Source: Nautilus pompilius (lineage: Eukaryota > Mollusca > Cephalopoda > Nautilida > Nautilidae). From it: a DNA stretch of 64,000 nt. Location: contig JACATO010000654.1 of assembly GCA_018389105.1 (NCBI GenBank), forward strand, positions 434,001 through 498,000. The letters are read 5' to 3'. Below the pieces are notes generated by a model that saw only the letters and a list, made by a program, of their open reading frames with translations, made no database searches and was not told the origin of the DNA. Both the position numbers and the translations under genes were made by a program. Shown here in pieces: positions 1,694-64,000 of this stretch; the stretch's first letter is position 1, and each line of letters begins with the position of its first letter.

Positions 1694-18416
<16,723 letters not shown>

Positions 18417-20871: not shown

Positions 20872-22178
20872 CACTGGTCAACAAGTATTTTTCATCAAGC
20901 ATATGTCAAGGTGTACTTAGTGTAGTTTTTAATGCTGATTTTAAATATACAATTAGTTTTTTGACATCACCTACAGTTTTCAAGATGAGAAAGTTTTTTG
21001 GTTTTAGCTCATGCATTATATAGAAATTCCAATTAATGACGTGCATGCATGTATTTCATTTACATCATGGAAACATACCTTTAAAATAAACTACATTATT
21101 CATTGCCTCATAGTTCAGATGCAATATTTCATCATCTTAAATTAACCAATCAAGTTTTGTCTGATGAAATAGATATTTCAACATCTCAAATTGTCCAGTC
21201 ACAATTGGTCTGATGTTAATGGGAATGCAGGCAGGTTTCACAAAATACTGTTGTTTCTTGTGTCTATGGGATAGTCAGGCAACTGACAGACATTATTCGG
21301 AATCAAACTGGCAGACAAGAACATCATACCAGCCAGGACTGTCTAGCATCAAGAATACACCTCTTGTAGATCCATGTAATGTCCTATTGCCTCATTTGTA
21401 CATAAAGCTTGGACTGATGAAACTGTGTGTAAAGACACTAGGGAAGAGAAGTTTCCCAAAATCACACAGGCGAAGTTGAAAGAGGGTATCTTTGTCGGAC
21501 CCCAAATTAGAGAAGTACTCAAAGATGTCAACTTCAAGACAACACTGGATGAACTGGAACTGCCTGCCTGGAATGCTTTCAATTGGATCTGTGAGAATTT
21601 CTTGGGCAACAAGAAGGCAATGGACTACAAGGATGGCATCAAGAATCTTCTGAAATGTTACTCAGCAATGGGTTGTCGCATGTCACTGAAAGTTCACTTC
21701 TTGGACTTCTTTGCAGATAACCTTGGAGCAGTGTCTGATGAACATGGTGAAAGATTTCACCAGGACATTAGTGCTATGGAGAAACGGTACTAAGACTTCT
21801 GGAATGACAGTATGCTGGCTGACTACTGCTGGACACTTTATTGTGATCAACCAGATCAGGAAATCCAAATCACAATGTTTCTAACTCTGTTGTTCTAACT
21901 TTGTCTGATCCATTTTTTGTGTATTCACTCTTTGTAGAATGATAGTGATGATTTTTAACTCAATAAACTCATTTACTTTCTAAAAATAATATGTCCTTAT
22001 TTATTATGTTAATGATTTCATATATACAAATATGTAAATATTTGCATGTATCTACTGAAAAACTGATACGTGCTGCATACAAATGGAGTGGAATTTTGAA
22101 ATCAGCATGAAAAATTAGTCTAAAAAAGTCTGTTTGCATTCATAATGAGTATAATACATTTAATTTTGTTGACCAGTG
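20872..22178 (+). mobile_element. DNA transposon with CACTGGTCAACAA inverted ends
   Basis: The left end CACTGGTCAACAA (20872) is mirrored exactly by TTGTTGACCAGTG at the right end (22178). TAA immediately flanks both sides, a possible 3-bp target duplication. About 55-65 bp inside each end lies a matching inverted subterminal motif, TTTTTAATGCTGATTTTAAA on the left and TTTTTCATGCTGATTTC on the right. Between them is the C-terminal part of a conserved protein (see 21190-21793), with an AATAAA signal near 21960. At 1.3 kb it is too short to hold the whole protein, so it is a shortened copy. I could not assign the superfamily: a TAA duplication would suit PIF/Harbinger-like elements, but the protein shows no transposase motif I recognise. 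Confidence 0.75.
21190..21793 (+). pseudogene. Fragment of a conserved transposon-borne protein of unknown function
   Basis: Two overlapping reading frames give consecutive parts of one protein. The first has GFTKYCCFLCLWDS, LVDPCNVLLPHLYIKLGLMK and similar blocks; the second has KLKEGIFVGPQIREVL, the aromatic AWNAFNWICENFLG and DEHGERFHQDISAME. The same blocks in the same order occur at 61123-61956 on the other strand. From memory, this family appears as 'uncharacterized protein' in many invertebrate genomes; I know no assigned function. The CCFLC pair and the DEHGERFHQD segment (acidic and histidine residues) are the most striking invariant features. The copy is partial and broken. It is enclosed by the inverted repeats at 20872 and 22178, which ties the protein family to a mobile element. 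Confidence 0.7.
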
Positions 22179-35265: not shown

Positions 35266-36264
35266 CTGATGTAGGAAAATAAACTACACTGTGCTGCTAT
35301 AACAACTGAAATATAAATTAATACTGTAGTGAAAATATACCTGCGAAAAGGATAATTGAATGTAATATTAGATCAGTGATGTGTATTTGACCACACCTGT
35401 AATATGCTAGGTTCCAAGCAAATGGCAAGAATAGGACATCAGTGTTAAATGTCAGCAGGAAATTATCTTATAATTTTGATATTTAAAGCTGACCACCCTT
35501 TAAAAAAAGAAGCTTGTCCTTTTGTGCAACTTCTGTAGAGGAGGAATCACGTGTTCTAAAAGTGTCAACATAATGCACTCAGGATTTTAGATTTGATAAA
35601 CCCGATAAACTTTCAATTCTATTTATCAACATCAAAGATTCAATGTAAAGAAAATAGGGATTTTGGCTTAGGTAGAACCATCCATACACTTTTATATAGA
35701 GGATAAAAAGAAAACTGATGTAGAAAGGATAGTGTGCGTGTTGTTACCTTTGGATGTTAATATCCAGTTGTTTTTTTCTGTTTCTTACATTTCCTCAAAA
35801 AGAAACACATCTACAGACACCAATTCCTGACTTTCTATGGGCTTTATGAATAAAAGACACTGGACGATGAAGAGAATCCTCCAGGCTACATGCTGCACTA
35901 TCATTCACCACGCCTGGGGTATCAAGCTCATGTCTGCTGTTGTTAAGCCGAAAAACAGCCCCTGAACTGGCTGTTACCATTTTCAACATGAAGAAAGAAG
36001 TCAGTGTAACCCATTCACATCCAGCCTGCATCTTTACTAATTGGAGTTGCAGAACATTCTGATGTCAATCATTTCTGTCAGCTGGCTCTTCATCTTCCTT
36101 TTACATCAGAAGATTGGGGTATTTTGTTTGTTTGTGTGTTTGTTTTTTTTTTTTATTGTAATAGGGTCACGCATTTCCCCCTATTTTCGTTTGTTACTTG
36201 AAACAATTATCTCCCTTTCCTCGATACGTACGACGCCCCCCCCTCCCTCGTCAGCTCAGGTGAT

Positions 36265-36930
36265 GTAACTAACCGAAGCTTCAGTCCCACGAGGCCACAG
36301 TGACAGGTAAAATTAGATAGCAGAGCAAATACACTTCCCTCCCGAGCGGTGATCCGGAGGACCGGTCCTCAGGGGATCTGCAGCAGTCAGTCGGAGAGAC
36401 TTCGGAAACTACTGGCGCCCCCTGCTCCTATTGGCTGCATACAGAAGTCGTTATCAATGTTTTTCATTAAGTTACCCAATTTTTCATTTATTTCACAATT
36501 TATATGAACTATTTTTACGGTTAATCAATTTTGTATCCTTCCTTATAGACTGGCCTATGTAGGGGCCCCCTAGACCCATCCCTTATAGACCGGCCTGGGT
36601 AGGGGCCCCCTAGACCCATCCCTTATAGACCGGCCTATGTAGGGGCCCCCTAGGCCCATCCCTGGTTGCGTTAGTGATTCCAGTGGGAGTCGGTTTGTAC
36701 AAATATTTTTATTATAATATTTCCATGGCTTATAATTTATTTCAAATACATTATTTACAATATATCTATCTTTGTGAACGATCACCAAACTGTAAATGAG
36801 ATCGATAAGTTAATTAACGAAACCCACAAATTCTACGTACGGTGTTGTGGTTCATTGATACTCCTTTCAAATAAGGTCACCGGTGACATTAAATATGGCG
36901 GAGACAAACCTGACGTACAGTTATCAGATA
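36265..36930. repeat. Inverted duplicate of 59470-60060
   Basis: Reverse-complementing 59470-60060 reproduces this segment with moderate divergence. Shared blocks include AAGCTTCAGTCCCACGAGGC, GGATCTGCAGCAGTCAGTC, ACAAATATTTTTATT, CGATCACCAAACTGTAAA and AAGGTCACCGGTGACATT. The part at 36270-36345 (minus strand) corresponds to the 5' half of the exon-like block at 59914-60165, encoding NFTCHCGLVGLKL here and NFTCHSGLVGLKL there. Confidence 0.8.
36541..36660. repeat. Three perfect-register tandem copies of a 40-bp unit
   Basis: The 40-bp unit starts CCTTATAGAC, contains GTAGGGGCCCCCTAG and is repeated three times with only a few substitutions. The related site in the inverted partner near 59710 has just one GAGGGCCCCTT, so the tripling is local to this copy. 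Confidence 0.9.
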
Positions 36931-37094
36931 ATATGAAGCCATTAACTAAACATCATTCGAGTTAATACAGAAACGGGAATTAATTACGATGTATTCAACC
37001 CCCCCAACCTGTCTCCACCAAGGTTGATGGCAGTTTTAATCGACTAAGCGATTTTTGTATTTCTATAGATTCAGAAGTTCAATAAACAGAATAA

Positions 37095-38345
37095 GGAATG
37101 CCCTCTCTCCCTCTACCTCTCTGTCTTCTTTCCACATTTCGTCTGTCTCCTTTTCTCTACCTCTGTAGCTTTCTCATTCTTTCGCCTCTTCACACTCCTT
37201 GTTCTTGACTCCCTGTCCGCATCCCAATTACTAACCCTCTCTTCTCTGTATTTCGCTTCCTGATAATCGTTTCCCCTTGACAGCCTTCCTGTTTCTTCTT
37301 TACTATCCTCCTCCCATCCGCTGTGTATCGCTGTCTGTATCCACTCCCTCTCCATCTTCTGTCACCTCCTGCATGTCCCTCTCTCCCTACCCTCTCTCTC
37401 TTGCTCTCCGTTCTCTCTCTCTTAGCTCTTCCCTCCGTTTGATTTTCTGTATCTGACTTCTTGTCTCTCCTTGTCTATCTCTTACCCCTCTTTGATTCTC
37501 CCTGTCTGTCTCTCCCGTTCCCTTTCTCTTTTCCAATCTTTCTCATTCCCCCTTTTTTCGTGTCACCGGTGTCTCTATTTGTTTCACTGTCTGTGCCTTA
37601 CGCTCCATGTATATCTTTCCCACTCTCTCTGTCAGCCTTCTTCTGGATCTCTCTGTCCTCCACTACCCTCTGTCTCACACTCTCTTCTCCATTTCTGTCA
37701 CTTTCTTTGTCTATTTCTCTACCTCTTCATCTTTCTACCGCCATATCTGTCTGTGTCTACTTCATTCTCTTCTCTCTCTGGTCTCTCTCTCTCTCTCTCA
37801 TTTCGCTGCACATCTCCATCTACCTCCTTCTGTCTGTTTTTTTCCTCGATTATTTTCTCTGTCTTTCTTCTTTCTCCTTTTTGTTACTATTCTTTATCTG
37901 CCTCTTCCCCGCTGTTTCTCCTACTTCACGAAAATTTTCCCTCCTTTGTTTCTGTGCCTCATCTTTATTTCTCTGTTTCTCTTCGGTTTTTACCTATTTA
38001 CCCCCCTCCCTGGCCTCTATCTTTCCGTCTGATACCTTGTCTACTTCCCTTTCTCCTTGCCTCCCTATTCCCCTCTTTTTCTTCCCTCAGTGGTCCTTGT
38101 TTGTTTGTCTTCCTGTCTCCACCATCTCACCCCCCCTTTTTAGTTTTTTTTTTCTCTCTGTCTCCCAGTCTGTCTCTCTGTCCCACCCTCTTTCTGACCC
38201 TGTTTGTTTCTGTCTTTCTCCCTATCCCTCCACCCTCCCTTTTCTCTTACTCGCTCCATGTTTGTCTGTATGTCTCTCCCTCTGTCCCTTTCACCCTCCC
38301 TCTCTGCCATTCTCTCTTTTCTTTCGCTCGCTTGTCTCCACCTGT
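37095..38345. repeat. 1.25 kb pyrimidine-rich (C/T) tract
   Basis: The plus strand is overwhelmingly C and T, without strict periodicity (TCTCTGTCTC, CCCTTTTCTC and similar). Long open frames on the plus strand (up to 320 codons from 37461), made almost only of Ser, Leu, Phe and Pro, result from this composition and are not a gene. Confidence 0.85.
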
Positions 38346-38603
38346 CTGCAGATGCGTCATCACCGGAATACTGCCAACATCGTTTTATTTACTGCTGTGA
38401 CAAACAAGGAACGAATAATCTGAAGGACTTTTTACCGTAAAATGTATTTTACCCTCTGCTACAGTTTCTGGCACTTCTAAGTACCGTGTCTACTGATTTC
38501 AGTCAGCAGTCAGCAACACTGGTCTGTTTGTCTGTCTGCAGTCTGTCACACTTCAAGTGATGATAATCTGTTTTTCTCCCTTAATAAACTCTCCAATTTC
38601 TCC

Positions 38604-38670
38604 CTATTTTTGCCAAAGTAAAACGCTGAAAAAAACAAACAATATTACGGCTACAATACCAGTAGTTGTA
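38604..38670 (-). other. Possible terminal exon with a membrane segment
   Basis: After a minus-strand acceptor GTGTTTCAG, the frame reads a hydrophobic run (TTTGIVAVILFVFFSVLLW) and then a stop. That is the layout of a last exon of a single-pass membrane protein. Upstream codons are open as well (to 38897) but unrecognised. The isolated hydrophobic run could be chance in AT-rich DNA. Confidence 0.25.
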
Positions 38671-39364
38671 CTGAAACACAAACCATTCGACTTATTCAAA
38701 TACACTGCTGTCCATAATTGTGGGTGACCAGTTAAATATCCATATTTTATATTTGGTCGATTTATTGGCGACTTCGAGTCAGTAGACTCCCTGACAAAAG
38801 CTGGGGTTACGATAGGTTTGTATCGGACCTTTGAGGACCCGACTCTGTTCGTTGGACGGGAAACACAAGGTATTTCATCGGTTTGTCCAGAGTTCACATC
38901 GCCGGTTTATATGCACACATCAGGTGAATGACGTCGTGTGAAAGTCGTTTTTTTTAAAAAATCTGTATCTGACTGCGGAAAACTCCTTCTGGCGGAGGAT
39001 CGGCCGTGAATTGTGACGTCATTTCCTGGAAAAGGTTTCGACATAAGGGAATAAAAACACTGGGAATGTGGTGAGGCATCAGAAGTATTGAAAAGATAGA
39101 CATCCGAGTGTGGTCATGGATACAGAATCACGCAGAATTCGTGATCTGAAGATAGGTTTTGCTATTGTTAGTGTGACACAAACCGTTTGGCCCCTGCTGT
39201 ATTCCGGGATCAGCAGTACCCAGAACCCTTCTTTGTTTGCTCGATCTTTGCGTGCCAACATATTCTTCAGCAATGCTCCTGTAGACAACTGGTGGTGAAA
39301 TGGTTAAATACACAATATCTCCTTTATATCATGAATATCTAATGTATAAGATACGCGCTGAATA

Positions 39365-41874
39365 TTAAATCTCTCTCTCTCCTCCATCTCACTCTGTGTA
39401 ATAACGTCATCTCTCTCTCCATCTCTCTCTCTGTAATAACGTCATCTCTCTCTCCATCTCTCTGTAATAACGTCATCTCTCTCTCTCTCTCCACCCTCTC
39501 TGTAATAACGTCATCTCTCTCTCCATCTCTCTACCCTCTCTTAATAACGTCATCTCTTTCTCCATCTCTCTACCCTCTCTGTAATAACGTCATCTCTCTC
39601 TCTCCATCTCTCTCACTGTAATAACATCATCTCTCTCTCTCCATCTCCATCTCTCTCTCTGTAATAACGTCATCTCTCTCTCTCTCTCTCCATCTCTCTC
39701 TCTGTAATAACGTCATCTCTCTCTCATCTCTCTCTACCCTCTCTGTAATAACGTCATCTCTCTCTCTCTCCCATCTCTCTCTCTGTAATAACGTCATCTC
39801 TCTCTCTCATCTCTCCATCTCTCTGTAATAACGTCATCTCTCTCTCTCTCTCCATCTCTCTCTCTGTAATAACGTCATCTCTCTCTCTCTCCCATCTCTC
39901 TCTCGTGAATAACGTCATCTCTCTCTCCATCTCTCTACCCTCTCTGTAATAACGTCATCTCTCTCTCCATCTCTCTACCCTCTCTGTAATAACGTCATCT
40001 CTCTCTTCATCTCTCCATCTCTCTGTAATAACGTCATCTCTCTCTTCATCTCTCCATCTCTCTGTAATAACGTCATCTCTCTCTCTCTCCATCTCTCTCT
40101 CTGTAATAACGTCATCTCTCTCTCCATCTCTCTACCCTCTCTGTAATAACGTCATCTCTCTCTCCATCTCTCCATCTCTCTGTAATAACGTCATCTCTCT
40201 CTCCATCTCTCCATCTCTCTGTAATAACGTCATCTCTCTCTCCATCTCTCCATCTCTCTGTAATAACGTCATCTCTCTCTCCATCTCTCCATCTCTCTGT
40301 AATAACGTCATCTCTCTCTCCATCTCTCCATCTCTCTGTAATAACGTCATTTCTCTCTCCATCTCTCCATCTCTGTAATAACGTCATCTCTCTCTCCATC
40401 TCTCCATCTCTCTGTAATAACGTCATCTCTCTCTTTCTCTCCACCCCCTCTGTAATAACGTCATCTCTCTCTCCATCTCTCTGTAATAACGTCATCTTTC
40501 TCTCCATCTCTCTGTAATAACGTCATCTTTCTCTCCATCTCTCTGTAATAACGTCATCTTTCTCTCCATCTCTCTGTAATAACGTCATATTTCTCTCCAT
40601 CTCTCTGTAATAACGTCATCTTTCTCTCCTCTCTCTCTGTAATAACGTCATCTCTCTCTCCATCTCTCTGTAATAACGTCATCTCTCTCCCATCTCTCTG
40701 TAATAACGTCATCTCTCTCTCCATCTCTCTGTAATAACGTCATCTCTCTCTCCATCGCTCTCTCTGTAATAACGTCAATCTCTCTCCCTGTAATAACGTG
40801 ATCTCTCTCTCTCTCATCTCTCTCTCTGTAATAACGTCATCTCTCTCTCCATCTCTCTCTCTGTAATAACGTCATCTCTCTCTCCATCTCTCTCTCTGTA
40901 ATAACGTCATCTCTCTCTCTCCATCTCTCGGTAATAACGTCATCTCTCTCTCTCTCCATCTCTCTCTATGTAATAACGTCATCTCTCCTCTCGCTCCTCT
41001 CCATCTCTCTCTCTGTAATAACGTCATCTCTCTCTCTCTCTCTCTCTAATAACGTCATCTCTCTCTCTCTCCATCTCTCTCTCTAATAACGTCATCACTC
41101 TCCATCTCTCTCTCTGTAATAACGTCATCTCTCTCCATCTCTCTCTCTGTAATAACGTCATCTCTCTCCATCTCTCTCTCTGTAATAAGTCATCTCTCTC
41201 CATCTCTCTCTCTGTAATAACGTCATCTCCTCTCTCTCTCTCTCTCCATCTCTCTCTCTGTAATAACGTCATCTCTCTCTCTCTCTCTCTCCATCTCTCT
41301 CTCTGTAATAACGTCATCTCTCCTCTCTCTCTCCATCTCTCGCTCTGTAATAACGTCATCTCTCTCTCCATCTCTCTACCCTCTCTGTAATAACGTCATC
41401 TCTCTCTCCATCTCTCTACCCTCTCTGTAATAACGTCATCTCTCTCTCTTCATCTCTCTGTAATAACGTCATCTCTCTCTCTCTTCCATCTCTCTCTATG
41501 TAATAACGTCATCTCTCTCTCTCTCTCCATCTCTCTCTCTGTAATAACGTCATCTCTCTCTCTCTCTCTGTAATAAAGTCACTCTCTCTCTCTCTCCATC
41601 TCTCTCTCTGTAATAACGTCATTCTCCTCCATCTCTCTCTCTGTAATAACGTCATCTCTCTCCTCTCTCTCTCTGTAATAACGTCATCTCTCTCCATCTC
41701 TCTCTCTGTAATAACGTCATCTCCTCTCCATCTCTCTCTCTCTCTGTAATAACGTCATCTTCTCTCTCCTCTCTCTCTGTAATAACGTCATCTCCTCTCT
41801 CTCTCTCTGTAATAACGTCATCTCTTCTCTCTCTCTCGCTCTCTCGCATCTCTCTCTTCTCTGTAATAACGTCA

Positions 41875-41925
<51 letters not shown>

Positions 41926-42296
41926 ATAAACGTCATCTCTCTCTCTCTCTCTGTAATAACGTCATCTCTCTCTCCTCCTCCATCCATCTCTCTCTCTGTA
42001 ATAAAAACGTCATCTCTCTCCATCTCTCTCTCTGTAATAACGTCATCTCTCTCTCCATCTCTCTCTCTGTAATAACGTCATCTCTCTCCATCTCTCTCTC
42101 TGTAATAACGTCATCTCTCTCCATCTCTCTCTCTGTAATAACGTCATCTCTCTCCATCTCTCTCTCTGTAATAACGTCATCTCTCTCTCTCTCTCTCTGT
42201 AATAACGTCATCTCTCTCTCTCTCCTCTCCATCTCTCTCTCTGTAATAACGTCATCTCTCTCTCTCTCTCTCCATCTCTCTCTCTGTAATAACGTC

Positions 42297-42339
<43 letters not shown>

Positions 42340-42412
42340 CGTCATCTCTCTCTCTCTCCATCTCTCTCTCTCTAATAACGTCATCTCGCCATCTCTCTCT
42401 CTCTCATATCCA
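39365..42412. repeat. 3 kb satellite: ~80 units of a CT-rich repeat with a GTAATAACGTCAT core
   Basis: I counted about 80 copies of (G)TAATAACGTCAT, separated by variable CT runs of the type CTCTCTCTCCATCTCTCT, for a mean spacing near 38 bp. Some subregions have regular 39-bp units (40100-40500), so the minus strand stays open there and encodes a Glu/Arg/Asp-rich repeat; this is a by-product. The core contains ACGTCA, a half-site-plus of the CREB/ATF element. The conserved core and sliding CT spacers suggest that selection, or unequal exchange anchored on the core, keeps the core uniform. Confidence 0.95.
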
Positions 42413-42429
42413 GGATACTCAACCTCAGA

Positions 42430-44900
42430 TCAGTTTTATTTAAAGAATATGAATTAAAAATTAGTTATAGAGAAAGGAAAAGGACTTTTTAAAATAAAGT
42501 AAATATAATAAATAAAAACAAAAAATATATATTATTTTACTTTTGCAATTCAGTAATTATTGAATTATAATTTCAAATTATATTTATAAAAGCTGTTTGC
42601 ATATTTAATTCGTATTAAATATAACTGTTATTTAGGGATCTGAATCTTGTCCAACAGCTCATGTAGTTTGAAACAAAAATGTCCTGAAATCGAAAAGTAC
42701 TAAGATGCAGATTCTACAAATGACTTATTATCTTTGGTCGACAGGGAATTTAAAAAATTGAAACTACAAGTTCTTCATGTACAACATCGCTTGATATTTT
42801 CAAATCTTAAAGTTTAAGGATAGAATATACTGATTATCCCATTTTATGTTAAACAGATAGCAAAAATACCAGAGAGAATAGGCTCCAGTAAGCTTTATTG
42901 CCTTTTGGTTATTGATTATGATTGGCAAAAATTAGCCACGTTACGTGCGCCCTTAGGAAAATCTATTTCTGTCCGTGCTTCTTAAATATGATCAACAAAT
43001 AATATCGACTTTCTAGCTTTTTGATTGAGGAGAATCAGAAACGAAGAATAATGATACCCTTATAATGAATGGTACAAGCGGCCACAGATGTGATATTTAA
43101 ATACAGTTGAGTATTTCTCGTATTCAATACGAAGAACACTGACAAACTGTAGAAAGAATGGAAGAATCGTGGAGAAAGTTTTGCTTTCTAAATTTAAAAG
43201 TAAAATGGTAAAATAATTCTTTATAAGAATGCACAGAAGACACAGCCATACGTTTCACTAGATTTGCATCACAGAGAACCATCAAATCCTTCTCCACCCC
43301 ATCTGAAAATGGTCGAAGGGAAATTCTAAATTCTACTGATTTACGTGGATCAGAAACTTCTCCATTAGAACAAAGTAATTTCGCTCTCGAAGACATGTCT
43401 GGTTTCTTTCCAGACATTGACATTCAATATAAGAGACAGGGAAAATAAAACATTTATAAAACACTTTTATAGGGGAGATAGAAATGTATCCAGCAAATAA
43501 TTACGTGATTAAAAGTATTGCGTAGATAATCAGTAATTGCTTACCTGCATTCAACTGACTTAATCCACGAAGGTTTCAGTTAATCTTTTAAACTTTTATA
43601 CGGTGGTTTCACAAAGGGAGAAATAGAAATACAAACCGCTCCCCAAGGGAGCGCCACAAAGTCAGGGGCAAACAGAAAATTCCCTTTTCCTGTTTAAAAA
43701 AAAAAAACGAGTTAGAATAATTTAGAAAATCAGAGAAATTTGCATAAATGTGAATTAGATACAAAAATTGTGACTTTGCTTATAAAATGAAATAAGAAGC
43801 TCACCTCGGAGTCTGTTAGACTGAATACATGAGGTTCACCAAGGATGTCTGTGTCCGGAGTCTTGTCCAGCAGCATTCTGGGTAATACGTAAGACCTGAT
43901 CATGCCGACCGAGTCCGGGATCCGGGACTAAACCCCCCCTAAAGATCTTTTATTAATTAGACGGATCTTTAATGAAACAATTTAGCCAAACCTGTTAAGA
44001 ACACGTAGACGTTAGCGACCAGAGAGATGGATCATATATGAAACTGACACCACGTGATCGGTTTCTTCTGCTCTGTGTTGAAAGTCGATTTATTGGTAAT
44101 AAATCAGTCGGCTTAAAGCGTTGGATCCAATAGATTAAATAAACAGTTTCCGTATTATCACGAATGGCATCGTTGGTCTAGAGATTAGCTCTACATTCTG
44201 ACAGAATCCACCAATTTTAAAACGTAGATAATTACATCTGAAGTCAAGAATTGTTAAAACTTTTAAATAAGATAACATAATAATAAATAAATATATTGGT
44301 TTTAACGATTTTGTTTTATTGTCATCTTTGATATTCACGTCATTTTCACGACTTTGATATCCCTTCAAATCACCTTATGACCTTTTTACAGGTACACGAC
44401 AGTTTTGACTACTACCCTGTCTCTTTAAATTAGGTAACACCTCACGCATGTGTTCATAATTGGCATTTAAAGGTTTTCATGCTGACAGACTACTGTTAGT
44501 GGGTGTCTATCATTATCGGGATTACCTGGACATTAGGAGCTCACATCTTCCATTTCCTTCGGGAGGGTTAATCTTGAGAGATCGAGATGAATTATACAGA
44601 TACCTGACACACAAAGAGAAAAGAGATGGGCCCAAGGCCATTCCTACTAAAGTCTTAACAATAGCCTATCAATATTTTAGAATATGTTTCAGAAGCTATC
44701 TCACCTGAAACCCAAACATCTATCAAACGTCAAGAGAAAATCAATTTACCAATATTTGGAATCGAATGAAACACGGAGCGCATACGAGAGGACTGAGTTT
44801 GTACTTGACATCGTAAAGGTAAAAGCAGTTTAATATTTTTTTAGAAAATAATAAAAAAATCTGCTTTAATATGAGACGCGTTGTCTCAAACCTATTGTCA
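42430..44900 (-). pseudogene. Decayed duplicate of the region 55050-58960 next to the GON gene
   Basis: Matched blocks, in the same order and orientation, are: GGGATCTGAATCTTGTCCAA at 42635 with GGGACCTGAACTTTATCCAA at 55145; GATTATGATTGGCAAA at 42913 with CAGTTATGACTGGCAAA at 55560; ACAAGCGGCCACAGAT at 43073 with ACAAGCAACCACAGGT at 55687; ACCATCAAATCC at 43279 and 56095; and ACCAATATTTGGAAT at 44750 with TCATCAATATTTGGTAT at 58870. The block at 43250-43310 corresponds to the short GON-gene exon at 56076-56136 (GGATTTGATGGT on the minus strand) but no longer reads through or ends in a usable donor. No GON exons remain to its left, where the satellite now lies. Confidence 0.65.
43805..43903 (-). 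other. Possible first coding exon, unrecognised (33 codons)
   Basis: On the minus strand an ATG opens a clean 33-codon frame beginning MIRSYVLPRMLLDKT and ending EPHVFSLTDSE at a good donor (GAG|GTGAGC), phase 0. An acceptor after a pyrimidine run lies 115 bases on (exon start 43689), but the joined frame stops after 26 more codons. It may be a small protein, a relic, or the start of a gene whose next exon I did not find. Confidence 0.35.
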
Positions 44901-51497: not shown

Positions 51498-54400
51498 TTA
51501 CTTTACCGAAAAGTTAGCCCCCATAGTACAGGGAGGCGCAGTGTTTGGCGCTGGAGTCGGGTGGAGCTGAAACAGAGAACACAGCACAAAATAAGAAGTT
51601 AACTTGAAAATACAGGAAAGAAAGCTACTACATCAGGTAATGATGCTGAATGTCAACAGGTAAAATTATCTTTATACAAGATGATTGCTACCTGGAAAAT
51701 ATTTTTAAAATGATTAAGATAATCGGATTAACAATTATTCCCTATTTCTCAAAAGAATACAATCATTTTGTACCTGAATAATTAAATAAGACAATTTAGT
51801 TCTTTGATTACTAAGTCACACCTGAATTTCATAGATGTTCTGTGAGGCAAACAGTGAAATAGGCCGCTTGAAGGTTTCCTGCTTCTTGGTGCTAATTTTG
51901 ATGAAGAATAGAAATATAGATGCAGAGAAAATCACTGCTACAGGTGAGGAACCAGAAGACAAGAAAAACAAATGCAAATTATCGATGTCTTTAATTATTT
52001 TACTGTTGTTTTTGATGGTTGTTGTCATACCTGTGGAGTCTAATTGGAGAGTCATTGGACCGTCAGGTCTGCAGCCTCCGCACCAACCTCCGCACACCGC
52101 TGTTATCTTTCTGCCATCAGCTGACCTCTCTAAACTGTCCCTTCTTCCCTTATGGCCCCTAAGCTTCCACTGCAACTGAAACAATCACCGAAAACGTAGA
52201 GTTGACTTAGCAATACCTTTACTGATTGGCTCCTCCCCTCTACCTTCTGGGGTTGATGGCTGCCAATATTGTAGATAAAGCAGGGAGAAAACGCTCGAAA
52301 CAATGGCAGACTCTCATTGTTTGATATTTAAAGGAACTTCGATCCTGCAAATTGAATATTTTATAGTAACTAATTAAAAACCCCAAATTATTTAACGGTA
52401 ATTGGTCCCTAAAGGTGTCCACTACACAGCCCCGAATACATAATGAAATAAAACAGGTTTGTTTGATACGATATAAAATTCAGAATTGTTTTTCACATTT
52501 ATATCCCAAGGAATATGGAACACTTACCGTCCTATTGACCAGCAAACCTGATCCTCTGGTGTTGATGGTCATGGTGCCTAATTTTCTACAACTGCTTAAT
52601 GTGTCAGTGTTATACACACAGTCTGCGGCAGCACCAAAGTTCCGCCGATTCCCTGTTGTACTGCTGAAGGTGAAGTCACTCCTCACAACCTGCATTGTCT
52701 GCAATTGATACGATTCCCTCTCATCATCTCAATGGAGAGTTTATAATTCTCAAGATAGCACTATTTCTCTTGTCTACAAAATGTTTAAGCAGAACATAAC
52801 AAAGATACATTGACGCAAAACTTTTAATGTGAGAGTCCCCCCCTGTCATTATTTAAGGAAATGGTAGTGCGTGTTCCTCGAGGTATCGATTATACATATC
52901 ACTTAGTAATCATCCGGATCATAAATGAAGCTGAGCGATCTGTTATATTGTAGATTAGTAAATGTAAGTGTTAACGTCTAAAACCGCCATTATACCATAG
53001 ACATGGCGTCGTCGCATTAATGTCTTTAAAGGGGGACTCTTACATAATGATAACAGCCCCTAACCAAGACGTTAGGTGCTGTAACAGTAGAATAAATAAT
53101 GTATTAATATTTTTCTTGTTGAACTCATTCACTTTCCTTTATGCTCTTCAGTAATTAAATCTACCTCTTCCCTTGTCCATGGTAAAAAGTACAAACGATC
53201 GTATTCACTCTTGGTTGGTACCTCCAGCTGACCAAAGGTTCACTCGGCAGCTCTTATTTCTCCATTCTAGGTATCACGTGGTTATCTGTTGGTATCACGT
53301 GGTTATCTGTTAGGTATCACGTGGTTATCTGAACCCTGCTGAACCAGATTTATTCCACAGAACAGCAGTGTACCATGAAGCTGACTGCCAAACCCGTCCT
53401 GGGAAACCTAAATAAGCCATATTTCTAATATAACCTTATTAGAGTATTTAATACTTAGCACTTTCGATAATCACAAGGTGCTTTGTTTGTTCATATCTGT
53501 TTAAACCAGACTTACTTTAATTTGGATTCTAATTTTGTTGAATCTTGTAGTTCCATGTTTTCCCAAGGACCAGTCTTCCACGGTTGAGCAGTCAGCGTTC
53601 CCTGTCATTTTCCTGGGTGGGTAGATGACGATGTTTTTCTCGGGTAGGGTCACGTATTCAGTGGGCGAGTCGGTGCTCATGTTATGACAGTAAATCTTCA
53701 CCCTTCTACCCTGGAGGCCGACGGGGTAGATCCAGTACTCGCCGTCCGGCAGCTCCTCGTTGCTGCAGTCCTGCACATCTTTACAGCTTTGTACAGCTGT
53801 TGTGAATAAAAGAGAAGGGAAATATGGACGAAGTGTAGCCACTGTCCATTATACCGGCGGTACAAGGGGGTCGTCTTTTCTACTGTTTAATAGACAGAGT
53901 CACCACCGGATCTCAGGAAGAGTGAAGCATTCTGGGACTGAAATTATTTAATCCCGCTTGCAGTCATAGAAAAGGGGGCAGAATTTTCAAAATGATGAAG
54001 AGGTTTTCTCTTAGACGTTTTTTTTTTTTTTTTTACGACCCAGAAAAGCCGGGATTTAAGTCCCTCAGTACTTTCTTTAGGTACGCCTTTCCATCGTGGC
54101 GAATTCCCGGAGGTCCCCCGTGTCGGCCTAGGTGTGAACCCCGAATGTCGGACAACATGAAGCCCAGTTGAATAACGACTCGTGTCACCCACGAGAGATT
54201 GTGAGATGAATTTCTGAATCTGGCTGCGCCATCAAATCGCAGAATAAAATAATACAAGTGTTGAAGATCGGAAAACCTGTCACGGTCGGTTTGTTAAAGT
54301 AGGCGATTCGACAGAGAGAGAGAGAGAGAGAGCAAAGAACACGGGATCACCTGATGATGGCGGATGTCAAACGGTAACCGAAAAAAGAACCCGGGGGCTT

Positions 54401-58647: not shown

Positions 58648-59008
58648 AAACAAGACTATACAGAAGAGAGGGAAGCCGGCCTGAAGTAATTTAGCATGAA
58701 GAGCAACAACAATGAACCCGTGTAGCTCTGGGAGAAAAAACCATTTAAATTATTTGGGTGTTAAGCAAAAGCTGATTTATATTTTATAGTATCCTTTCAG
58801 AAACTTTCACGCTCAACAGCTAAGGATCGGTTACAGACCTAAAAACATAGAAAGTCACAATCAATTCATCAATATTTGGTATTGTTCAAAAAGCAGGTAG
58901 ATAGAGGAGTTTGCACTGAATATCGCTTAGGCAAATTCAAATAAATATTTAAGGACAAATACAGTTCTGATGGACACATTAACATAGAATTTTTGGCAGA
59001 TTTTAGAT

Positions 59009-59012
59009 GACT

Positions 59013-59071
<59 letters not shown>

Positions 59072-59128
59072 GAGAGAGAGAGAGAGGAGAGAGAGGAGAG
59101 AGAGAGAGAGACAGATGAGAGAGAGAGA

Positions 59129-59178
<50 letters not shown>

Positions 59179-59352
59179 AGTTACTACAGAAAGAGATGGA
59201 AAGATGGAGAGAGGGAGAGGGAGAGAGAGAGAGATGGGACAGAGAGAGAAGATGGGGGAAGATAGGGGAGAGAGAGAGAGAGACAGATGAGAGAGAGAGA
59301 GAGAGAGAGATGAAGTTAGTACAGAAAGAGATGGAAAGATGGAGAGAGAGAT
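59009..59352. repeat. GA-rich satellite, inverted decayed relative of the CT array
   Basis: (GA)n runs enclose two long units with GATGAAGTTACTACAGAAAG and GATGAAGTTAGTACAGAAAG, each followed by AGATGGAAAGATGG. On the opposite strand these read CTGTAGTAACTTCATC, equivalent to the array core CTGTAATAACGTCATC. The orientation is thus inverted relative to the arrays at 39-42 and 57.6 kb, and the core has lost its CpG. Confidence 0.8.
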
Positions 59353-59469
59353 TACTTTCTTTATTCCATTTATTCAACCTCTGAGTATAGAAGAATAGGA
59401 AAAGAGTAAACCATCTAAAACTATCTTTAGTGTGATGTTGAGTTAATTGTTTTATATAACTGGCCCGGA

Positions 59470-60931: not shown

Positions 60932-61970
60932 ACACTGGAAAACCAATTTTAATGTTTTCTTGCAATCTCATGGGTGTTTCCTATAGCATTTTTGACGCTG
61001 ATTCCAAATATGGTCATGGAATTGCGCTAACTCCCCTAGTTACTGTGTAAATTGTGTTTAAACGTGAAGAAACCGAGTTTAAACATATAAGGAAATTACA
61101 TAAAGAACTTATTATTATTGATTTAAGATTTCTTGGCTAGGGATTTCCGTTTGTAGCTAACTTCAGGAGCATCTCTCATTAGTGTCCGGCAGTAATCAGG
61201 GTCCAACCGGCCTTGAGAGCGTTTTCCTATGGTTGAAATATCCTGGTGAAATCTTTCGCCATGCTCGTCATCTACATCTTCAAGGTTCTCTGGAAAGAAA
61301 TCTAAACGAGATTGCATAAAATGGATCTTCAAGTACATATTGTATCCCATTTGTCTATAGGCCTCAATCATTTCATGCACCAGTTGTTCATAGTTTGGAG
61401 CCTTGATGTTTCCTAAAAAATAATGACGACAGATTTTAGGGCCTTCCATGCTGTTCTTTCCCTGTCCCTTAAGACTGCATCAAAATGTTTGTCCCTCATG
61501 AGTTCCCTAATTTGGGGACCAACAAGAATCCATTCTTTTATCTTTGGCTCACTAATACCAGGAAACTCTTGCTTCAAATGTTTGAATCCGTGTCCATCTT
61601 TGTTCATTGATTTGACAAAGTTCTTCATCAGTCCTAGTTTAATATGAAGTGGTGGCAAATATATTTTTTGGGTGGTCCACCAATGGTTGATGAGAAACAT
61701 TCTTTTGTCCTGGAACAATTTTACGAGCAGACCATTTTTTAACAATGTGATGGGATTCTCCGACCCTACTGTTCCATTCACATAGGAAACAGCAGAATTT
61801 AGCATATCTGAGCTGCAAGCCCAGAAGTAATGCTAAAACATTTAAATCGCCACATATGCGCCAGAGAAATTTGTTTAATTGTTTAAGAATGGTCTTCATG
61901 TTATCATAGGGTTTTTCCATGTGGACAGCGTGCCCAACGAGAATTCCACCCACCATAGAACTTGAAATTA
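60932..61970 (-). mobile_element. Second copy of the CACTGG-type DNA transposon
   Basis: The left end reads CACTGGAAAACCAATTTTAA, close to the CACTGGTCAACAAAATTAAA end of the copy at 20872-22178. About 58 bp inside is TTTTTGACGCTGATTCCAAA, matching that element's subterminal motif. The protein remnant runs on the minus strand, so this is the element's 3' end, as expected. I found no matching right end beyond 61960; it is probably truncated there. Confidence 0.6.
61123..61956 (-). pseudogene. Conserved transposon-borne protein of unknown function, second copy
   Basis: Three overlapping minus-strand frames together cover more of the family than the first copy. Blocks in order are HAVHMEKPYDNMKT, ICGDLNVLALLLGLQ, CCFLCEWNSR, IYLPPLHIKLGLMKNFVKS, ILVGPQIRELMRD, LDFFPENLEDV and DEHGERFHQDIS, then PDYCRTLMRD and a basic KRKSLAKKS end. 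The protein differs from the 21.2 kb copy at many positions, so the two are separate old insertions rather than a recent duplication. The copy is broken. It shares no order or motif with the DDE, RNase-H or tyrosine recombinase families I know. Confidence 0.7.
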
Positions 61971-62170: not shown

Positions 62171-64000
62171 AAAATTTTTTTTTAAAAGTGACTTTCTACA
62201 AAGCTGGCTGTCTCAAAACTATTTTTCGGAAACTAAAAGATTAAATATTATAATTTTCACGTATTTTGTCGCACATATCATACTTATTTTAATTTGTGAG
62301 ATTATCCACCGTTCATCCCCTTCTGCAAAAGATTTGGATATTTTTTCCCTCAGGTAAACTGATTTGACCTTTTGGTGGGCAGGTAATTCCCATGTCTTGA
62401 TCGCGCAGCATTTTCACTTTATAATATTAAATGGACCTCCTAAAACATCACTGTCGTGTAGATATGTAGTGTGTATTTTTCACGCGATGGAAATGCTTTT
62501 TGATTGGTGTTTAGAAATTTATGAGACGAGTGAGAATATTTCTGTAAAGCAGACTATTGATTCTCTGTATTTGAAGAACAAACTCAGGAAGGCATTCAGT
62601 AAAACGTACTGGTCCCTCAAGGTGACATTGAGCTATGTCACAACGTCTCCTCTCCTTAAAACGTTAAAAGGGGGCTGTCAAAGAATAACTTAGGCCATAT
62701 TAGGGTCCCATGCTGCGCAAAGGGAACTATTTTAGAGGAGGTCATGCTATAAACTGACTCCTTTCCACAGTTTTCTCGTCATCAGTTGGAGCGTTTTCAT
62801 AGGTTCTCGAATACCATTGCTGTATTTCTTTGTTTGGTTTGGCCAAAAGCAGAACTTGTTGTTTATATCCAAGGTAACCGTGCACTCACTGGTAGGAAGC
62901 TGCTTGGAGATTCATTAACTCTTCAACAGCAGACAACCTCACACTTAAATAAACGGAATGTTGTTATCACAGTGATAAAAGTTTTGATGGTTGAAGGTAT
63001 GAGAGGGCGGAGGAAAAGAGATAAACTCGAGACAGCATCCACATAATGATGATCAAGCTGGTGATGCTGTTGATGGAAGTCTGTAGCCAATTAGCGAATG
63101 GTTATTCTGTTCAAATTTACCTGATAAACAAAGAATATTCACACACACACACACACACATACTAGGGCTTTCTTATTGATTCCCTAAAGCTCGAAAGAAA
63201 TCATTTACCTCGAGGCAGACAGACTTTGTGGTCGAAATGTCCACAAGAATGATTCTGCCTCGGTATTTTTCAGATATTATGACTACACCTATTTTCGTAT
63301 AAAATATAATGCTGCCAATTAAACCGTCAATAATTGCTTTAGTAGTGGCTATCATCTTTCCGGCATTATCTTAACACTTCAGCGTTACTTCTAAGTGAAA
63401 AAATTTACAATTTGTTCAAATTTAAGTTCTATGCTGTAAGGAGAAAACCAAGTAACGCCATCATGACAGTTCTGCAGGAGAGAAACCTGGTTTATGGTAC
63501 AGACAATTTCTATGGACGAGAAGAAAATTTTGGATAATTTCTATGGATCCCGTGACACCTTCACAAACAGGCTGATTAGAAGTAGGGACTTCTCTGTAAT
63601 GGAGCCGGAAGTTAACTGTATTACAGAAAATACCTGCAGGTTTATCCAAAAAATTTTTTAGACAGATCCATTGACTTATAGTTCATGTTTTATCACACAT
63701 ACACCACAATGTCCGGATGGACGTGTTCTACACATTGCCCATTCCACTGACGCTGTAGCCCATGGGCTTGATATCCCGTTTTTTAAACGTGTGAACCGGA
63801 CACCTGGCGTTACTATAGCATCTCTCATCTTTTTGAAACCTTTTTTCTAAGGCAGATCAAGTAAGCGTGACGAAAACTGCTAACCTTTTGAACAAGCGTC
63901 GATTAAGTAATTTGTAAAATCGGACATTTTCTAATTAACTTGGTCTTAGTTATTACACTATTCCACATAGCGGGTGACTACGAATTCGATTTCTGCAGTC
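62171..64000. other. No gene recognised; (CA)n at 63138-63162
   Basis: Short open frames (for example 62364-62693, 109 codons, plus strand) have no recognisable motif, start or splice context. A CACACA microsatellite lies at 63138-63162. The rest is AT-rich unique-looking DNA. Confidence 0.5.

Follow-up and report, generated by a model that had tools for sequence, protein, structure and literature searches.

Two elements in the window (the whole 64,000-nucleotide stretch of DNA that was analysed) are very probably remnants of Chapaev3-like cut-and-paste transposons of the CMC group, and the seemingly orphan protein that they share is very probably their DDE transposase. The two elements, copies A and B, represent separate families within one transposon type. 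On the sequence evidence, the protein is most likely the transposase and not a passenger, because full-length copies in the genome encode it, because it has the motif signature of such an enzyme, because the insertions are of the TWA type and because copies share a deletion subfamily.

Copy A, which preserves both terminal inverted repeats (TIRs) and a target site duplication (TSD), has the following features:

20872..22178, plus strand: copy A, a 1,307-bp non-autonomous deletion derivative of a probable Chapaev3-like transposon of about 2.36 kb, from its TIRs, its TAA TSD and its mapping to the long genome copy L013
20872..20884, plus strand: left (5') TIR, CACTGGTCAACAA, an exact match to the reverse complement of the right end
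22166..22178, minus strand: right (3') TIR, the exact reverse complement of CACTGGTCAACAA
20869..20871, no strand: left TSD, TAA, in the context ATAA
22179..22181, no strand: right TSD, TAA, followed by G where the type usually has T
20923..20943, plus strand: left subterminal motif, TAGTTTTTAATGCTGATTTTA, 18/21 against the right motif (an overlapping 21-mer is 17/21 against copy B)
22097..22117, minus strand: right subterminal motif, TAATTTTTCATGCTGATTTCA in the minus-strand reading, from motif comparison and blastn
21215..21216, no strand: internal deletion junction, about 1.0 kb absent, with a breakpoint shared by genome copies
21216..21868, plus strand: transposase remnant extending from C(2)C almost to the C-terminus, frameshifted and with one in-frame TAA

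The exact inverse 13-bp ends at 20872 and 22178, with TAA outside both, had been reported in an earlier note on this DNA, and the sequence bears them out. Taken alone, these ends and the TAA are weak evidence, because shuffled windows hold such pairs equally often: exact 13-bp inverted pairs with a spacing of 0.5–3 kb number 5 in the window and average 5.3 over 100 dinucleotide shuffles of it, and a pair of this kind flanked by matching 3-bp sequences is present in 10 of the 100. Copy A maps to positions 1–344 and 1360–2383 of L013 at 94–96% identity. The segment that it lacks holds, in long copies, the N-terminus and both catalytic aspartates, and coding in copy A begins at residue 314 of 554, just beyond the second catalytic Asp.

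Copy B lies nearer the far end of the window:

60933..61937, minus strand: copy B, the 3' half of an element from a second, related family, truncated at 61937, 80–87% identical to the corresponding half of 13 genome copies
60933..60945, plus strand: 3' end, CACTGGAAAACCA (family form CACTGGGAAACAAATT)
60989..61009, plus strand: subterminal motif, TTTTTGACGCTGATTCCAAAT
61126..61937, minus strand: transposase remnant with the second catalytic Asp, C(2)C, LH and E, carrying two frameshifts and with the second His of H(4)H changed to Arg

The earlier note had placed the same protein at 61123–61956, and copy B does encode it, the proteins of copies A and B being 42% identical (E 2e-56). Its peptides were partly misplaced: LPPLHIKLGLMK belongs to copy B, and copy A has LPHLYIKLGLMK. 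The view that two independent copies define the ends holds for copy A, which shows both, and not for copy B, which shows one; the similarity of copy B to its family ends at 61937, and a copy of the 3' end form, sought as far as position 64000 for the 5' end, was not found. The end that copy B retains shares 17 of 22 bases with the copy A right end. Past CACTGG the two agree at 11 of 16, a level reached by 0.12% of random window 16-mers. CACTGG itself occurs at 26 sites on both strands of the window, and outside the elements the best match to the copy A ends covers at most 8 of the 16 following bases. The subterminal motif is 17–18/21 identical in all three end pairs, with 17 or more reached in 1 of 316 random pairs, and blastn of the 3' stretches of copies A and B recovered the right subterminal motif (18/21, E 0.003). 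The GCTGATT within this motif is present at all three ends, as the note had it, starting 62, 72 and 64 bases in and not at about 58; with offsets that differ in this way, its claim of an equal distance is not exact.

Over 203 codons, copies A and B differ at 44, 26 and 65% of codon positions 1, 2 and 3, and because of this pattern we infer past selection on the protein before the copies decayed. N-terminal remnants were sought upstream of the coding regions of both copies and none was found, because of the internal deletion in copy A and the truncation in copy B.

We searched the source genome, that is, the assembly of the window (727.6 Mb in 2,558 contigs), for further copies. The exact 13-bp end CACTGGTCAACAA occurs 2,100 times (1,059 forward and 1,041 reverse), against 23 occurrences (15 + 8) of a control pattern in which the end is read backwards. 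Among the first 100 places listed, 29 inverted pairs were matched by eye, of which 20 were fetched; by size, the 29 comprise five copies of 2.3–2.4 kb, nine of 1.6–1.8 kb and 15 of about 1.3 kb. Sampling was non-random, from the start of the list or by protein score, and the A-family copies were picked by their exact ends. CAC…GTG TIRs are seen in copy A, and the 20 fetched A-family copies, having been selected by their ends, provide no independent count of them.

The check by ends in the source genome that the earlier note had called for came out in favour of the protein, which is encoded by all five fetched copies of 2.3–2.4 kb. By tblastn these contain 547, 554, 554, 554 and 552 of its 554 residues in one to four coding segments per copy, full in length and with frames mostly broken, and the longest frames in the five (at most four listed for each) are the transposase gene or antisense to it. 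The breakpoint of copy A, at 344/1360–1363 of L013, recurs to within 2–3 bases in all seven short copies compared (copy A and L027–L032), and pairwise identity among the 1.3-kb copies, copy A included, is 95.6–97.5%. Because the breakpoint and the high identity are common to them, the 1.3-kb copies are best interpreted as non-autonomous derivatives amplified as units. Other internal deletions occur in the nine copies of 1.6–1.8 kb (L018–L026), and two of these deletions recur, with L013 breakpoints at about 688/1275 (L018, L020, L021 and L022) and at 537/1195 (L023, L025 and L026). Because breakpoints recur among these copies too, deletion derivatives appear to have arisen and spread more than once.

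The reverse search started from the protein. With the joined copy B protein as the query, 138 of 6,468 first-look candidates were scored, and the genome yielded at least 139 matches, of which copy B itself accounts for two and many have no internal stop. Among the matches listed, 30 loci were scanned for ends, allowing at most one mismatch for the A type and at most three for the B type. At least one recognisable end is present in 29 of the 30, which answers the second check that had been proposed, by protein, and 13 of the 30 have both B-type ends at element spacing (1.6–2.2 kb apart). In the B family, the 5' ends are like CACTGAGGAACAAGGT and the 3' ends like CACTGGGAAACAAATT. This passage from ends to protein and back therefore adds support for transposon ownership of the protein.

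The target-site comparison covered 34 copies: copy A, the 20 others fetched from its family and 13 from the B family. Of the 34, 22 are flanked by exact 3-bp duplications, and 19 of these are TWA (A family, 11/21 exact and 10 TWA; B family, 11/13 exact and 9 TWA). The base before the left site is A in 31 of 34 copies (19/21 and 12/13 for the A and B families, respectively), and the base after the right site is T, likewise in 31 of 34 (18/21 and 13/13). When flanks were re-paired at random, 44 of 2,000 A-family trials and none of 2,000 B-family trials attained the observed count of exact duplications; the A-family count beats random re-pairing only modestly. Three A-family copies (L014, L016 and L028) are flanked by TTA at one end and TAA at the opposite end, for which later mutation or exchange between copies is possible.

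The enzyme is best represented at the L056 locus, which shows one exact A-type end and an open frame of 618 codons, 554 of them counted from the conserved protein's first Met. Residues checked by position in this frame (D254, D308, C327, C330, H376, H485, H490 and E507) make up an ordered set consisting of D, D, C(2)C (C327-x2-C330), L-H376, H485-x4-H490 and E507. In DEHGE, the second Glu would be the third catalytic acid. The frame begins with a Cys-rich N-terminus, seen in long copies as CYVCG, CSAC and CYFC, and the first-Asp region, LFIDSSK, is present in genome copies. Both window copies are without the first Asp, and the second His of H(4)H is deleted in copy A and replaced by Arg in copy B. 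When the copy B protein was shuffled 20,000 times, the order D-x18-CxxC, LH, H, E arose 15 times and a looser form 179 times, for a pattern that was defined after the motif had been seen and that left the choice of H and E free. The first option of the earlier note, that the protein is the transposase and that DEHGERFHQD holds a metal ligand, gains support from the full-length copies and the motif set.

Neither the window remnants nor the 554-residue protein has a Pfam family match above cut-off (zf-AD, at E 0.11 and 0.68, falls far below), and the DDE assignment therefore rests on motif order and spacing. A profile search of solved structures in the PDB gave unrelated proteins as its best matches (E 0.1–0.3), NCBIfam returned nothing for the protein, and Rfam found nothing above gathering score in the 64-kb window. 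Searching by protein gave no relative in IMG/VR, phages or GTDB, and a pattern search of IMG/VR gave none of the window protein. A pattern match in Arthrobacter (L001) was taken as chance, as were three in IMG/VR (L002–L004; tblastn E 0.2 or worse). In the open-licence PubMed Central literature, the peptides LPPLHIKLG and GERFHQDI were not found; nor did that literature yield a CACTGG-ended TIR transposon with a transposase, and Chapaev3 appears in four of its papers. We take the protein family to be common among other invertebrates, with many such proteins uncharacterised. A family consensus as we presume it to be matches copy A at 61% over 142 residues, which is weak support given that the window sequence had been seen beforehand.

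Structure prediction was of little help. The model of the copy A window piece has a mean pLDDT of 39.5 from a shallow alignment, and that of the copy B piece spanning the second Asp and C(2)C a mean of 54.6, also from a shallow alignment. The copy B piece is modelled, at low confidence, as one long helix with no strand at the second Asp, where an RNase-H fold needs one. Both models are poor and are given no weight either way; the RNase-H fold is without their support.

By its anatomy, set against published descriptions of Chapaev3, the element would be filed under that group, and the recombinase type, which the earlier note had called not obvious, can be assigned from motifs and anatomy as DDE, of the CMC group and Chapaev3-like. 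Zhang et al. 2014 (PMC4079192) give as Chapaev3 hallmarks CAC…GTG ends, C(2)C, LH, H(4)H and a TWA TSD between A and T; they also describe Garfield, a Chapaev3 element of 2,289 bp with a 556-aa transposase, report MITE derivatives of Chapaev3, and give two exons for Merrow and Garfield and one for most other Chapaev3 elements. The N-terminal Chapa zinc finger of Chapaev3 is named in PMC4411706. For the wider CMCT clade, Kojima 2025 (PMC12730594) describes C(2)C and H(3–4)H between the second D and E, mostly CA…TG ends and 2–5-bp TSDs. The nautilus element shares with Merrow, Garfield and Conan the CAC…GTG ends, TWA between A and T, internal-deletion derivatives, a length of about 2.3 kb and a transposase of about 555 aa with D, D, C(2)C, LH, H(4)H and E, a likeness drawn from published descriptions. 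The intact frame found here is a single exon, whereas the Merrow and Garfield genes have two.

The motif order D-D-C(2)C-LH-H(4)H-E is also that of Transib and RAG1, the antibody-gene-shuffling enzyme to which Chapaev3 is distantly related. In mouse RAG1, numbered along the full-length chain 9jpu_A, D708, C727 and C730 have spacing identical to that of D308, C327 and C330 here (D2-x18-C-x2-C; +19, +22), and H937/H942/E962 parallels H485/H490/E507, with a distance from first His to E of 25 in RAG1 and 22 here. No significant sequence similarity to the RAG1/Transib core was found by PDB profile search or hhalign. Against RAG1 698–816, hhalign gave non-significant P values of 0.04 and 0.11, with D308 on D708 and C(2)C on C(2)C; against the E962 region it gave P 0.66, and the H and E motifs were unaligned. 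A TransibSU copy has a 5-bp duplication, according to PMC4411706, whereas the duplications here are of 3 bp.

Could the element be a CMC transposon of another kind? The boldest version is a separate unnamed CMC lineage outside Chapaev3 that shares the A-TWA-T target, with the invertebrate proteins that we presume uncharacterised as its transposases, intermediate between Chapaev and RAG1/Transib; we regard this as unlikely. Assignment to an animal EnSpm/CACTA lineage, or to a separate one comparable to CNEST, ESTA or Lanisha, would leave the working of the element the same and is, in our judgement, decidedly unlikely. EnSpm/CACTA and CNEST do share the CMC motif set and CAC…GTG ends with the nautilus element; EnSpm also has 3-bp TSDs and C(2)C/H(3–4)H, according to PMC12730594, and fungal CNEST groups with unclassified animal transposases (PMC12810828). 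Against these readings, A-TWA-T, the target found here, is the published preference of Chapaev3 (PMC4079192), and the length of the element and the size of the protein also suit Chapaev3. The CNEST element is described, in PMC12810828, as 7.2 kb long with TA duplications and 33-bp CACGG ends. For EnSpm/CACTA, a Pfam transposase domain above cut-off is absent from the remnants and the 554-residue protein, with which a diverged member would still be compatible.

That the protein is a passenger, or a host gene fragment inside an unrelated MITE, is extremely improbable, and the captured-passenger option of the earlier note is disfavoured by the full-length copies, which encode the protein. Copy A by itself is indeed a short element with a broken gene fragment. 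Against this stand the 547–554 of 554 residues encoded by all five long copies that carry these ends, the conservation of end type and gene position between two families whose proteins are 42% identical, the ends at 29 of 30 listed loci found through the protein, and the transposase motif set; no other transposase was seen in the five full-length copies examined. PIF/Harbinger elements also make 3-bp TWA duplications, as seen here, but neither the remnants nor the 554-residue protein matches a Pfam DDE family, the Harbinger DDE nuclease included, the ends are CAC…GTG, and the combination of C(2)C, LH and H(4)H is characteristic of CMC elements, leaving that reading with a negligible probability.

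The Chapaev3-like reading leads us to propose the following scheme. A complete element is about 2.36 kb long, with 13-bp CACTGG inverted ends and one gene, and its insertion into an A-TWA-T target duplicates TWA, as the flanks show. By analogy with the family, the Cys-rich N-terminal part of the transposase would bind the TIR and the subterminal motif, and D254, D308 and E507 may hold two metal ions in an RNase-H fold; C327, C330, H485 and H490 may form a Zn site as in RAG1. The enzyme would then cut both ends and join them to the target with a 3-bp stagger, giving rise to the TWA duplication. Excision may also leave hairpins on the flanking DNA, as it does in RAG and hAT. The internally deleted 1.3-kb and 1.6–1.8-kb derivatives, copy A included, have spread with recurring breakpoints, and such deleted copies would be mobilised in trans by those in which the gene still works.

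Other parts of the window carry unrelated features. A remnant of a CENP-B N-terminal DNA-binding domain (6930–7418, plus strand; PF04218, E 6e-6), with a long overlapping antisense frame, is probably a piece of a Tigger/pogo-type transposon, and a GON domain match (53501–53848, minus strand; Pfam PF08685, E 5e-14) is probably a host gene exon. TC-rich repeats with strong strand skew and long open frames on both strands occupy 36000–42500 and 58900–59400, and GC skew falls to −0.73 in the 36000–42500 stretch.

Taken together, these data give an apparently orphan protein family, with no matching model in the copy of Pfam that was searched, a likely function as a Chapaev/RAG-related DDE transposase. 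Several deletion subfamilies that share these ends make the element a clear case of non-autonomous amplification. Because the genome holds an open full-length frame, the activity of the enzyme is testable.
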